From assembly GCA_947455705.1 (NCBI GenBank), contig CANGPO010000005.1, positions 1 to 64,000 on the forward strand: a stretch of DNA of 64,000 nucleotides. Direction: 5' to 3'. Under the pieces are notes generated by a model. The model was not told the DNA's origin, did not search any database, and saw nothing but the letters and a program-made list of their open reading frames with translations. The position numbers and the translations under genes were made by a program. Below, piece after piece: positions 15,152 to 54,737 of this stretch. How positions within the stretch are numbered: position 1 is the first letter of the stretch; every line of letters begins with the position of its first letter. The stretch is from Actinomycetota bacterium (lineage in GTDB: Bacteria; Actinomycetota; Actinomycetes; S36-B12; CAIYMF01).

Positions 15152-15177
15152 CTCATGTCACGGGTCCCATGACCGAT
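15152..15177 (+). promoter_or_regulatory. Candidate FliA promoter CTCA-N16-ACCGAT for flbD-motAB
   Basis: ctca tgtcacgggtcccatg accgatg; -10 core overlaps the loop and right arm of the 15157-15189 hairpin. Confidence 0.6.
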
Positions 15178-15189
15178 GGGACCCGTGAC
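15157..15189. repeat. Perfect 14-bp inverted repeat with 5-nt loop (terminator-like, overlaps promoter)
   Basis: GTCACGGGTCCCAT-GACCG-ATGGGACCCGTGAC. Confidence 0.9.
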
Positions 15190-15242
15190 GGATGTCATGG
15201 ATGGCATCTCAACGTCGAGACCAAGGATGGCCTGTTGTGATT

Positions 15243-15530
15243 ATGCTGACGCGTCTTAACGGACCGGCTTTTGCGCTGAACCCTGATTTGATTGAGCGCG
15301 CCGAATCGACGCCAGACACGGTGATTACTCTCGTGGATGGTGCGAAGTACGTCGTTGCCGAGAGCCTCATCGAGGTCGTCGAACGTATCCGCGAAAGTCG
15401 GGCTCTCGCACTGGCGGATGCCGCGAACATCAAGAACATCGGCTCCACCGGGGACATTTCCAGTGTTCACGAACTGACGGACGACGTTGAGCAGGATTCG
15501 TCAGTGCTTCCATTCAGGAGGAATTCCTGA
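15243..15530 (+). CDS. flbD: FlbD-family flagellar protein
   Basis: MLTRLNGPAFALNPDLIERAESTPDTVITLVDGAKYVVAESLIEVVERI, typical FlbD, upstream of motA. Confidence 0.88.
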   Translation: MLTRLNGPAFALNPDLIERAESTPDTVITLVDGAKYVVAESLIEVVERIRESRALALADAANIKNIGSTGDISSVHELTDDVEQDSSVLPFRRNS

Positions 15531-16300
15531 TGGATCCGCTCACCATTGCCGGCGTAGCGCTGGCCTTCGTCTTCATCCTTGGCTCGATGGTGCTCGAGGG
15601 TGGAAACCCGATGAGTATCGTGCTCATCGCTCCGATGATCTTGGTGTTTGGCGGCACTATCGCTGCTGGCGCCGCGGGCAACTACTTACCTGAATTCATT
15701 TCATCATTGAAGTCCGCAAAAGATGCGTTGATGGCGCCCAAACCTGAATCGGCAGACTCGCTGATCGGGACGATCGAGCAGTGCACTGTGGTGGCGCGAA
15801 AAGAAGGTCTGCTTCGTCTGGAAGAAACGCTCAAGACAATCGAGGATCCATTCCTCAAGAAAGGACTCCAGCTCGCGATCGATGGTACGGATCCCGATGA
15901 AGTCGCCGAGATTCTCGAAGCTGAGATTCGGGCGACCAAGCGTGCGGGTGCGCAACAGGCAAAACTCTTCAAGGACCTGAGCGGTTACGCGCCCACGATC
16001 GGCATCATCGGAACTGTCATGGGGCTCATTAATGTCCTTAGCCACCTGGACGATCCCGGTGAGCTGGGTCCGCACATTGCCTCGGCCTTCATCGCAACTC
16101 TGTGGGGTGTTTTGAGCGCGAACATCATCTGGCTACCGCTTGCCAACAAGCTCGGTCGAATCACGGAGGTCAAAGCTGAGCGGATGGAACTCATCGTTGA
16201 AGGCATCCTGATGATCCAGGCCGGATCCAATCCGCGCATGGTTCGCCAGAAGTTGATGTCACTCATGCCGAGTGCGGTCGACGAGGCAAAGGCAGCCTGA
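15530..16300 (+). CDS. motA: Flagellar motor stator protein MotA
   Basis: LKDLSGYAPTIGIIGTVMGLINVLSHLDDPGELGPHIASAFIATLWGV. Confidence 0.96.
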   Translation: MDPLTIAGVALAFVFILGSMVLEGGNPMSIVLIAPMILVFGGTIAAGAAGNYLPEFISSLKSAKDALMAPKPESADSLIGTIEQCTVVARKEGLLRLEETLKTIEDPFLKKGLQLAIDGTDPDEVAEILEAEIRATKRAGAQQAKLFKDLSGYAPTIGIIGTVMGLINVLSHLDDPGELGPHIASAFIATLWGVLSANIIWLPLANKLGRITEVKAERMELIVEGILMIQAGSNPRMVRQKLMSLMPSAVDEAKAA

Positions 16301-33896: not shown

Positions 33897-34133
33897 CTAA
33901 TCGGTCGGCTTCTGGCCAAGATGGGCAGCGAACGATGAAGCCTGTTCGGCTGACACGGTGGCCTGTCGATTAACTTCGGCAATTTGTTCGTACACCTCTT
34001 GGCGGTGCACGACAACACTTCGTGGCGCGTCAATACCAAGCCGGATGACATCTCCCCGCACTTCAAGCACGGTGATCGTGATGTCGTTTCCGATGACGAT
34101 ACTTTCGCCGGTCCGTCGGCTGAGAACTAGCAC
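33897..34133 (-). CDS. csrA: Carbon storage/translational regulator CsrA
   Basis: MLVLSRRTGESIVIGNDITITVLEVRGDVIRLGIDAPRSVVVHRQEVYEQI. Confidence 0.97.
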   Translation of the reverse strand: MLVLSRRTGESIVIGNDITITVLEVRGDVIRLGIDAPRSVVVHRQEVYEQIAEVNRQATVSAEQASSFAAHLGQKPTD

Positions 34134-34137
34134 AGCC

Positions 34138-34560
34138 CTAGCCTACGGCCGATGAGGTTAATGGGGCGCGAAGTGAGAGCGTGGCGTCTTCGAGAACAAC
34201 CTGGGCTCCTTTGCGCTTCGTGGAGTTCACGATCACGGGGGCGGCGAGGTTCGCCGTTGAGGATGGCAGGTCTGCTCCGACCGTGACGATCAGTAGCACG
34301 AGGGCATCCGTCTCATCTGTGAGATCGAGCTGTTCGGCGATATCGTCACCGATTTCCGGGGCGTAGTCCGGAAAGAAACTAAACGAGGGCACTGCGACGA
34401 AGCGGGTACCGCTGCCATCAAGCGCATAGAGATCGAACACTGAGCCCAGCTCGTCAAGGCGCACAAGGGCCCAGTCGTGGATGTGAGGGAAGCCAGGTAT
34501 TCCATCGGCGAAATGCACGACCGGAACTTCCTGCGACTCGGCAACGCCGAGTTCGGTCAT
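34138..34560 (-). CDS. fliW: Flagellar assembly factor FliW
   Basis: VVHFADGIPGFPHIHDWALVRLDELGSVFDLYALDG; adjacent to csrA. Confidence 0.93.
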   Translation of the reverse strand: MTELGVAESQEVPVVHFADGIPGFPHIHDWALVRLDELGSVFDLYALDGSGTRFVAVPSFSFFPDYAPEIGDDIAEQLDLTDETDALVLLIVTVGADLPSSTANLAAPVIVNSTKRKGAQVVLEDATLSLRAPLTSSAVG

Positions 34561-34689
34561 CGGTTCCTCCCCAAGTTGTGTGGCGTGGTCTGTGTGGTCC
34601 CGGCGAAAGTCGCTGCCCGGCACCAATGTTCTTGACCCTGACATTAGCCCATCCCTACCGCTGGATTAGTGAACATGTCTGTGGCGACG

Positions 34690-37932: not shown

Positions 37933-38790
37933 ATGAGTGACGCAACACCGGGTACGCCCGATGAACTGATCGAGTCCCACATTCCGCTCGTTGGTCACAT
38001 CGTGGCCGAGGTCGCCTCACGGCTGCCCGCCCATGTGTCCAAGGATGATTTGCACAGTGCCGGACTCGTCGGATTGGTTCAGGCCGGTGCGGCCTATCAG
38101 GCTGAACGGGGTGTGCCATTTCGTCGGTATGCGGCCATGCGCATTCGCGGCGCCATCGTTGACGAACTACGTGCAGCTGACTGGGCGAGCCGCTCCAGTC
38201 GCGCCCAGGGTCGACGCCGAGATGTCGCAGTAGAGCAGCTAGGTGCGGCACTCGGCCGCACGCCAAATCAGGCTGAGATCGCTAGCTTCCTTGGCGTAAC
38301 GGTCGCCGAGTTAGACCAGGTTGATGAGCAACTCAAGCGCACCGTGGTTCTGTCGCTTGATGCTGCTCTTGATCCTGATGCTTTCGCTGGAGTTAAGTCG
38401 TCTGACCCGACTCCAGAGGACTACTTGATCGAAGGTGAGCAGCTCGTTTATCTACGTGCAGCCGTCGAGAATCTCGATGAGCGCCTGCGCACAGTAGTGA
38501 CGATGTACTTCTTGGAAGGTAAGCCGATGGCTGACATCGCGTCGAAACTCGGCGTGGGTGAGTCACGGATTTCACAGATGCGCGCCGAAGCACTTGAGCT
38601 TTTGAAGGATGGCATCAACAGCCAACTCGATCCAGACCAGGTGAAGCCAGTTGGACGCGAGGGGGGATGTGTTGAGCGCCGCCGTGCGACCTACTTTGCG
38701 GCAGTGGCTGCCTCGTCAACCTTTCGCACCATGACGGCTACAGACGAAGAGATTCCAGCCGCGCGCTCTGCACGGGTAGGCGTGGCTTAA
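37933..38790 (+). CDS. fliA: Flagellar sigma factor FliA (sigma28)
   Basis: AMRIRGAIVDELRAADWASRSSR; LGRTPNQAEIASFLGV; VVTMYFLEGKPMADIASKLGVGESRISQMRAEALELLK. Confidence 0.93.
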   Translation: MSDATPGTPDELIESHIPLVGHIVAEVASRLPAHVSKDDLHSAGLVGLVQAGAAYQAERGVPFRRYAAMRIRGAIVDELRAADWASRSSRAQGRRRDVAVEQLGAALGRTPNQAEIASFLGVTVAELDQVDEQLKRTVVLSLDAALDPDAFAGVKSSDPTPEDYLIEGEQLVYLRAAVENLDERLRTVVTMYFLEGKPMADIASKLGVGESRISQMRAEALELLKDGINSQLDPDQVKPVGREGGCVERRRATYFAAVAASSTFRTMTATDEEIPAARSARVGVA

Positions 38791-38890
38791 AGATTCTCAA
38801 TTCGTGTCATCTACTGGGGTGATGGCGCGAAGTCCCGGCTAGGTAACTAGCTCACAGTTTGCCCCCAGAAGAAAAAGATTCTGAAAAAAC

Positions 38891-38916
38891 CTCAGAGTCA
38901 GATCCGCATCACCGAT
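38891..38916 (+). promoter_or_regulatory. Candidate FliA promoter CTCA-N16-ACCGAT upstream of flagellin
   Basis: ctca gagtcagatccgcatc accgatgag. Confidence 0.7.
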
Positions 38917-38927
38917 GAGGGCAATGT

Positions 38928-38945
38928 CGGTTCACGGATGAGCCG
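38928..38945 (+). promoter_or_regulatory. Candidate CsrA-binding hairpin (ACGGAU hexaloop) in flagellin leader
   Basis: CGGTTC-ACGGAT-GAGCCG: 6-bp stem (one G-U) presenting ANGGAN in a hexaloop; second GGA in SD AAGGAGG 38968-38974. Confidence 0.65.
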
Positions 38946-38979
38946 GTATCAGGTAAGAGACCATATCAAGGAGGAAATC

Positions 38980-39804
38980 ATGGGTCTCCGCATTAATCAG
39001 AACATCGCGGCAATGAACGCGTACCGCAATCTGTCGGTAACGTCGGGCCAGATGGAAAAGTCACTGGAGAAGCTTTCGAGCGGCTTCCGAATCAACCGCG
39101 CTGCCGACGATGCTGCCGGCCTCGCAATCTCTGAGGGTCTGCGTTCGCAGATCGGCGGCCTCAAGACGGCCGTCCGCAACGCTCAGGACGGCGTCAGTGT
39201 TGTACAAACTGCTGAAGGTGCACTCACCGAGGTTCACTCAATTCTTCAGCGTGTTCGTGACCTGTCAGTACAGGCAGCAAACGACGGTTCCAACAACACC
39301 ACGTCACTGTCGGCAATCCAGTCTGAAATCACTCAGCTGGGTCAGGCTCTGACTGACATTGCTGGACGCACGAACTTCAACGGTAAGAACCTACTTGATG
39401 GTTCGAACGCCACGTTGACGTTCCAGGTAGGTGCCAATAGCGGTGACTCAGCTACCGTCACCCTGACCGATATCACGGCAGTGGCCACGGCCGTTACCGC
39501 CATCGATGTGACAGCCGCTGGTGGTGGCGCTGCAGGAATCACGGCAGTCGATACCCAGATCGGTACCGTTTCAAGCGCTCGAGCAGCACTTGGTGCTTCG
39601 CAGAACTACCTCGAGCACACCGTCAACAGCTTGAATGTTGCTGTTGAGAACATCTCCGCCTCTGAAAGCCGCATCCGCGACACGGATATGGCACAGGAGA
39701 TGGTGCAGTTCACCCGTTCGCAGATCCTCTCGCAGGCTGGTACCGCGATGTTGGCTCAGGCGAACAGTGCACCACAGGGTGTGCTCCAGCTGCTCCGCGG
39801 CTAA
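38980..39804 (+). CDS. fliC: Flagellin
   Basis: MGLRINQNIAAMNAYRNLSVTSGQMEKSLEKLSSGFRINRAADDAAGLAISEGLRSQIGGL; C-term RDTDMAQEMVQFTRSQILSQAGTAMLAQAN; RBS AAGGAGG. Confidence 0.98.
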   Translation: MGLRINQNIAAMNAYRNLSVTSGQMEKSLEKLSSGFRINRAADDAAGLAISEGLRSQIGGLKTAVRNAQDGVSVVQTAEGALTEVHSILQRVRDLSVQAANDGSNNTTSLSAIQSEITQLGQALTDIAGRTNFNGKNLLDGSNATLTFQVGANSGDSATVTLTDITAVATAVTAIDVTAAGGGAAGITAVDTQIGTVSSARAALGASQNYLEHTVNSLNVAVENISASESRIRDTDMAQEMVQFTRSQILSQAGTAMLAQANSAPQGVLQLLRG

Positions 39805-53322: not shown

Positions 53323-54737
53323 CGGTGAGCCCCGGTGCGATTTCGGCGACGGCATCGGCAGTGGCACGTCGTGAGGTGTCGTGCGTCGACACGGTGACTG
53401 AAAGCCTTAACCGGATTGAACAGTTCGATGGTCAGCTTGGCTCGGTGATTGCTCTGCGCGCTGAGTTAGCTCTGCAGGAAGCCTCAGCCCTCGACGCGGT
53501 TCTTGCCGAGACTGGCGAGGTTGTTGGCCCACTGCATGGTGTGCCTGTCCTTGTGAAAGATCTCGAGAACGTTGCCGGGATGCAGACGCGCAAGGGCTCG
53601 AAGCTGTTTCAGGACGTCGCACCTGCGCAAGTAGACGAAGTCGTGCCGGCTCTCCTTCGTGCGGCCGGGGCAATCATCGTCGGTAAGACCAACCTCCCCG
53701 AGTTTGCGACGGAAGGATTCACGGACAATCTGCTTGACGGGCCGACCAAGAATCCATGGGATCTGCGTTACTCACCAGGCGGATCAAGTGGTGGTAGCGG
53801 TGCAGCGATAGCCGCCGGTTTGGCACCCATCGCAACCGGAACCGATGGTGGTGGCTCGGTGCGCATTCCCGCTGGTCTCTGTGGCCTGCTTGGCATCAAG
53901 CCGACGGTTGGCGCGATTGGTCGCTGGCCAGCACCGGATTGGCTGGACCTTTCAACATATGGTCCGTTCGCAACAACTGCCCAAGATCTCGGCTTGCTCT
54001 ATTCATTGATGACGGGCGTTGTTCCAGGTGATCCGGCCTCGGCGCCGTCATTCGGTCAGCCCGAAACCGTCTATCGACGCATCGTCGTAACTGAGCGGAC
54101 GTCACCTTGGGGTCCGCTTCCCGAGCCGGTGCGGTCGTCGTTTCTCGATGCGGCACAACGGTTTGCGGCCATGCTTGGGCTACCTGCGGAGGTGATTGAT
54201 GGGCAGGGCACGTTTGAAACTGTCGGTGATCCTGACGTGGATTGGTTCACGATGTGCACTGCAGAACATGTTGCAGCCCTGGGCCGCGAGGTAGTGATTG
54301 CCAATCTTTCGATCATGCACCCCGCCGCGGCGTCCTTTATGGAAGAAGGACTCCGCGTTGGTATTGATGACTATCTGGGAACGCGTCACCGTCGCCCGAA
54401 ATACACGCGGATCATTGATGAATTACTGGGTCAAGACACGTTGCTCCTCACGCCGATCCTGGGTGTCGAGGCAATTACGTTTGACGGTCGGCTGCCGAAC
54501 AGTGACTCGGTAGACATGCTGCCACCAGAGGTTTACTCAACCGCTTTTCAAAACATCACAGGGCATCCAGCTATCTCATTACCGGCTGGGCTTTATCCGA
54601 GCGGACTTCCGTTCGGATTGCAGGTAACAGCGCCGCGCTGGCATGACCACCAACTCATTTCGCTGAGTCGGCGCTGGGAAGATGCGTACCCCTGGCAGCG
54701 AGTTGCGCCGGGATATACGGAGTTTTCGGTTCACTGA
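53319..54737 (+). CDS. Amidase (amidase signature family)
   Basis: [54 protein letters not shown]. Confidence 0.95.

Follow-up and report, generated by a model that had tools for sequence, protein, structure and literature searches.

Flagellin homeostasis in Bacillus subtilis has been described as depending on Hag, FliW and CsrA, with a hag leader that contains two CsrA sites, one of them over the Shine-Dalgarno (SD) sequence (PMC6529632, PMC7652899). Position 55 of CsrA is a contact with FliW both in this species and in Campylobacter jejuni, in which V51 and N55 take part in the interaction (PMC7829508). In Pseudomonas, the ANGGAX hexaloop binds RsmE with high affinity and defines high-affinity Csr/Rsm sites, and AGGGA and AAGGA pentaloops have also been reported as high-affinity Rsm sites (PMC4005645). 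With respect to Actinobacteria, CsrA control of flagellin through a site overlapping the SD, with 9 of 12 bases like hag, was proposed for Kineococcus radiotolerans (PLoS One 2008; PMC2587704); the proposal concerned one genome, and the portions of that article available to us contain no upstream hairpin, FliW or conservation analysis. The suggestion that FliW exerts control in the group dates from 2015 (PMC4682653). In a 2023 survey of the flagella of actinobacteria, the two proteins CsrA and FliW are named solely as search queries (PMC10746217), and in Actinosynnema pretiosum deletion of the transcription regulator PhoP raises flaD, swrD-motA, fliW and csrA alike (PMC9019756). Thus, CsrA acting at the actinobacterial flagellin SD (2008) and FliW in Actinobacteria (2015) had already been proposed, while the conserved flagellin hairpin and the site preceding flbD that are presented below are new as far as we could find: no description of them appeared in the open-access literature, which leaves most subscription journals outside.

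The window analyzed here, a 64-kb stretch of actinobacterial DNA, encodes a flagellin of 274 amino acids, FliC, at 38980..39804 of the forward strand (PF00669, E 1e-45; PF00700, E 2.4e-26). Both flagellin domains are present in the protein starting at ATG 38980. A longer frame opens at another ATG of the same phase, 38938, which overlaps the hexaloop described below, but 38980 is the likely start, because it is preceded by the SD and gives a typical flagellin N-terminus. A gene for a FliA-like sigma factor (37933..38790, forward strand; Sigma70_r2, r3 and r4) lies just upstream of fliC, and is followed by a sequence match to a FliA (sigma-28)-type promoter, CTCA-N17-CCGAT, at 38891..38916 on the same strand. 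The position of this candidate would place the transcription start near 38922-38925, which makes plausible the leader of about 57 nt predicted in an earlier note on this DNA. The motif CTYA-N17(18)-CCGAW was present in 50 of 85 flagellin leaders of the class, compared with 0.2% of shuffled leaders, and its end precedes the GGA of the hexaloop by a median of 21 nt in class leaders, so the hairpin is probably located at the very start of the flagellin message.

That hairpin, SL1, spans 38924..38949 (forward strand) and displays the hexaloop ACGGAU (38934-38939) directly on its stem, the configuration of high-affinity Csr/Rsm sites; it is proposed as a high-affinity CsrA site. The earlier note had claimed a CGGUUC-ACGGAU-GAGCCG hexaloop on a 6-bp stem in the fliC leader. 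Sequence and positions hold (CGGTTC-ACGGAT-GAGCCG, 38928-38945), as do the hexaloop and the core pairing, while the extent of the stem had been underestimated, since it runs outwards to 10 consecutive pairs, some of them G-U, with one U-G pair in the 6-bp core. The stretch UUC-ACGGAU-GA is common to the window and to the hcnA SD RNA bound by RsmE (PMC13287468). ANGGAN hexaloops flanked by at least six pairs were found at three places in the window when both strands were considered (15197, 38934 and 54339); the one at 54339 was discarded as a CsrA site, being inside an amidase gene, and was taken as chance. None of 100 dinucleotide shuffles of the flagellin leader reached the observed hairpin score (p ~0.01, the floor of the test), and SL1, folded in isolation, is more stable than its shuffles (z -2.3). 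The folding energy of the whole leader was no better than that of shuffles (z about -1) and was left out as evidence. In the predicted fold of the free RNA, an extra A-U pair reduces the loop to a tetraloop, CGGA; this pair is not a conserved feature, because the last loop position (X) can be U, C, A or G. An Rfam search of 38700-39100 gave no relevant family match even at E up to 10, nor any that reached the gathering score.

The second GGA claimed in the earlier note is indeed located in the SD of fliC, AAGGAGG (38968..38974, forward strand), where A-N-GGA occupies 38968-38972; this is the proposed second CsrA site, over the ribosome-binding site. The presence of GGA within an SD says little by itself, and it is the conserved A-N-GGA form that is informative: it was found in 85 of 86 flagellin SDs of the class and in 156 of 443 (35%) background SDs, these being the GGA-containing SDs of other long open reading frames of the same loci, with starts chosen by a simple rule. 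In the flagellin SDs, the N is free, and AAGGA, ACGGA, AUGGA and AGGGA all occur. The leader thus has a GGA site overlapping the flagellin SD and, upstream, a second CsrA-type site, a conserved and covarying ANGGAN hexaloop hairpin, in agreement with the two-site layout for which the note had invoked Bacillus hag.

A further helix, SL2 (38957..38988, forward strand), is predicted to fold with the SD in its loop, by pairing of GAGACC (38957-38962) with GGUCUC (38983-38988), the latter at the beginning of the fliC coding sequence, immediately behind the ATG. Helices of this kind scored at least 12 in 45 of 64 non-redundant class leaders, compared with a mean of 20 and a maximum of 30 in 500 shuffles, and when coding parts were redistributed among leaders the observed mean was equalled or beaten in one of 1000 trials. 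The complementarity may therefore be conserved, although the case is weaker than for SL1 and the evidence is only suggestive, because the coding side hardly varies.

Conservation of SL1 was analyzed in the flagellin loci of 80 actinobacterial records, to which were added leaders of genomes sampled across the phylum with a completeness of at least 90%. Hairpins displaying A-N-GGA in a hexa- or pentaloop and located between -95 and -17 were scored, with a cut-off of 12. This score was reached by 71% of 143 actinobacterial flagellin leaders and 0.9% of dinucleotide shuffles, in a set whose sequences are related, since many named loci had been picked for closeness to the flagellin of the window. 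In 67 distinct 24-nt segments from the class, 86% of the cells pair, against 56% in shuffles, and in 119 cells both sides of the stem have changed, against 42. The stem covariation score was 0.622, compared with 0.150 after shuffling and at most 0.153 in a control that slides the pairing partner by 1-3 columns and keeps relatedness. Almost every class leader has A-N-GGA in the loop; this motif served as the anchor of the alignment, so that constancy of A and GGA is by construction, which is not the case for pairing or for positions N and X, and these two vary while the stem pairs covary. The check on covariation in related genomes that the note had called for is thus strongly positive.

More than a quarter of the leaders, mainly from deeper classes, have no clear hairpin despite the presence of csrA and fliW, and the stem of several Geodermatophilaceae is broken by an A-A mismatch or a 2x2 internal loop, with the hexaloop retained. 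Pentaloops (AGGGA, AAGGA or AUGGA) replace hexaloops in the deep-branching leaders L156, L159, L160, L150, L164 and L147, and one genome (G154, L278/L293) has two tandem ANGGAN hairpins before a single flagellin gene. The leaders of two metagenome-assembled genomes (MAGs; L067, L068) carry the hairpin, and neither csrA nor fliW was found in their assemblies, perhaps owing to incompleteness. The idea that the two Frankiales MAGs without csrA and fliW had lost the hairpin as well was rejected, since both have AAGGA hexaloops. A genome-wide search with the 24-nt covariance model was not discriminating (best E 0.025, with scoring limited to 150 candidates in each genome); flagellin or flbD leaders made up about half of its matches, and the rest look like chance. 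Within the genus of the window (G001-G010), flagellin was found in one of 10 other genomes, indicating that flagella are sporadic there.

The proteins of the proposed switch are encoded together with the flagellin. On the reverse strand, csrA (33897..34133; GTG start; PF02599, E 3e-26; PDB relatives 2jpp and 5dmb) was found in a single copy in the source genome, and fliW (34138..34644; PF02623, E 5e-31; PDB relatives 5dmb, 5dmd and 5jak) is directly upstream of it, in the order flgK-flgL-fliW-csrA. Both lie 4.3-5.1 kb from fliC, close to the 4.5 kb given in the note. The CsrA of the window has 78 amino acids, with R6, R44, I51, N55 and a C-terminal extension. Its FliW is homologous to that of the solved CsrA-FliW complex (5dmb), and by analogy binding of CsrA and flagellin would be mutually exclusive. 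In a sample of 399 genomes, of which 61 have flagellin and 81 csrA, the latter was present in 60 of 61 flagellin-positive and 21 of 338 flagellin-negative genomes (Fisher p 6e-52, computed on related and hence non-independent genomes), and fliW was found in 60 of the 62 flagellin-positive genomes tested. Where no csrA was found near the named flagellin gene (31 genomes), one was present elsewhere in 25.

The RNA-binding residues R6 and R44 are invariant in 114 CsrA sequences, and position 55 is N in 108 of them. The six CsrAs with another residue there all lack coupling to fliW: two Modestobacter and the genome G397, which have no fliW, and three second csrA copies located away from it. The converse does not always hold, since N55 is retained, in spite of uncoupling, by the third Modestobacter and by another of the second copies. 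The three Modestobacter (L024, L029, L052), in which fliW is absent and position 55 is R, N and Q, respectively, have, as judged from their genomes, lost fliW naturally, and two of them show decay of the contact with FliW; because they keep the flagellin hairpin and csrA, the full partner switch is not universal. G397 represents an independent loss, with no fliW, a sole CsrA with R at position 55 and a flagellin leader without the hairpin. The second copies away from fliW (G211, G298, G374 and G465; L200, L205, L206 and L208), three of four without N55, suggest a FliW-independent CsrA paralogue. In a genome of the same genus as the window there is also a second, divergent CsrA match (G009:C94:6025-6165).

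Other explanations of SL1 have to be weighed against these data. Hairpins at mRNA 5' ends commonly slow decay, and a generic stabilizer with a loop read by no protein would suit the predicted 5' end of a usually highly expressed message. Such a stabilizer needs no particular loop, yet A-N-GGA is kept in nearly all class leaders, it is kept independently in the SD with N free, and csrA tracks flagellin; we regard this possibility as quite improbable. The half-sites of the repeat do not conserve sequence, only pairing; the repeat lies downstream of the predicted transcription start, and ANGGA recurs at the SD. All this makes it very improbable that the palindrome, even if near a predicted promoter, is a DNA operator read by a transcription factor instead of an RNA element. 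As for chance, GC-rich sequence readily forms stems and the window itself offers the ANGGAN hairpin of the amidase gene, but recurrence across the phylum and strong covariation render it negligible.

It could also be argued that CsrA represses flagellin under the control of another antagonist or of growth, rather than of FliW-flagellin feedback. The persistence of csrA and the hairpin in Modestobacter without fliW, with N55 changed in two of the three genomes, would be in line with this, whereas the nearly constant presence of fliW in flagellin-positive genomes, its position adjoining csrA in the window and the fact that every CsrA lacking N55 is uncoupled from it argue for FliW; this alternative seems unlikely. 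The reading we favor, with considerable confidence, is that the flagellin leader would be a two-site CsrA operator relieved by FliW, with flagellin translation following export as in Bacillus. Transcription dependent on FliA would start just upstream of SL1. By analogy with CsrA/RsmE biochemistry, one pocket of the CsrA dimer would hold the ACGGAU hexaloop at high affinity and the other the A-N-GGA of the SD, about 34 nt downstream, so that the ribosome would be blocked. FliW would bind CsrA through a surface including N55 and release the block, while unsecreted flagellin would titrate FliW and restore it, and flagellin translation would thus track its export, as in Bacillus. CsrA binding, repression and feedback by FliW and flagellin on the actinobacterial leader are what we infer from comparison, which largely supports the partner switch put forward in the earlier note, given hairpin covariation, the SD motif, the company of csrA and fliW, and R6, R44 and N55. 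Since nearly all of the closest flagellated actinobacteria keep the hairpin, with matched stem changes, along with csrA and fliW, it is very likely that the flagellin supply switch known from Bacillus operates across Actinomycetota.

A second proposed CsrA target, which like SL2 and the Kineococcus proposal goes unmentioned in the earlier note, lies between flgE and flbD (swrD), where positions 15152-15240 reproduce the promoter-hairpin-SD layout of the flagellin leader: a FliA-type promoter candidate with the same spacing, CTCA-N17-CCGAT (15152..15177), a hairpin of 7 pairs, GGAUGUC-[AUGGAU]-GGCAUCU (15190..15209), and an SD of A-N-GGA form, AAGGAT (15223..15228), followed by flbD from GTG 15237 (15237..15530; PF06289, E 3e-23 on 15246-15530) and motA (15530-16300, from the list of open reading frames), all on the forward strand. 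The isolated hairpin folds with a z of -2.7; it is weaker than SL1 and absent from the minimum-energy fold of the longer leader, and therefore the case for flbD rests on relatives. In 28 of 53 genomes the flbD leader scores at least 12, against 0.7% of shuffles, and these 28 segments covary on their own (0.657 compared with 0.197). The hairpin was not found in the flbD leaders of Geodermatophilaceae and Leifsonia that were examined, nor in that of Dactylosporangium, in which hardly any gap separates flbD from the preceding gene. The combination of hairpin, A-N-GGA SD and start codon occurs at 86 places in the named loci, about 80 of them before flagellin genes (56 belong to the query flagellin, and the majority of the remainder to additional flagellin genes). 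It was also observed in the flgB leaders of three genomes (L020, L050, L079), and the 86 places include the leader of one FliS-like gene (L068) and one flagellar open reading frame; the flgB and FliS-like leaders are possible lineage-specific additional CsrA targets. The presence of the same element in about half of the genomes tested makes it likely that flbD-motA belongs to the switch of flagellin, which may also set the expression of motor genes. We lean slightly towards an Actinomycetota FliW-CsrA switch wider than that of Bacillus, in which a single export-sensing circuit would control translation of flagellin and flbD (swrD)-motA and, in some lineages, flgB. If so, filament export would gate motor expression too.

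If the proposed reading is correct, a whole phylum with very little previous work on CsrA would be added to the range of the secretion-coupled translation switch worked out in Bacillus, Campylobacter and Clostridioides. Its targets would be marked by a covarying RNA element, and flbD-motA is predicted as a second one, unreported for the Bacillus system in the literature consulted. The loss of fliW in Modestobacter and the changes at N55 are natural experiments that make CsrA-FliW coupling directly testable. The same three proteins (CsrA, FliW and flagellin) form the circuits of C. jejuni and Clostridioides difficile, which belong to other phyla, and the window CsrA has I51 and N55 at the C. 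jejuni contact positions. The ANGGAX hexaloop on a stem is shared with the hairpins of Pseudomonas hcnA and RsmZ bound by RsmE (PDB 2jpp, 2mf0-2mfh), a protein that is controlled by the sponge RNAs of the Gac/Rsm pathway and not by FliW. By every feature testable from sequence, the window leader belongs with the hag system of B. subtilis: the leader of the flagellin gene has a pair of GGA sites, of which one overlaps the SD, csrA and fliW are neighbours, and there is a CsrA with the FliW-contact residue N55 and a C-terminal extension. Unlike in hag, CsrA binding is here inferred, the upstream site in Actinomycetota takes the form of a covarying ANGGAN hexaloop retained from genus to genus, and the same element also precedes flbD-motA.
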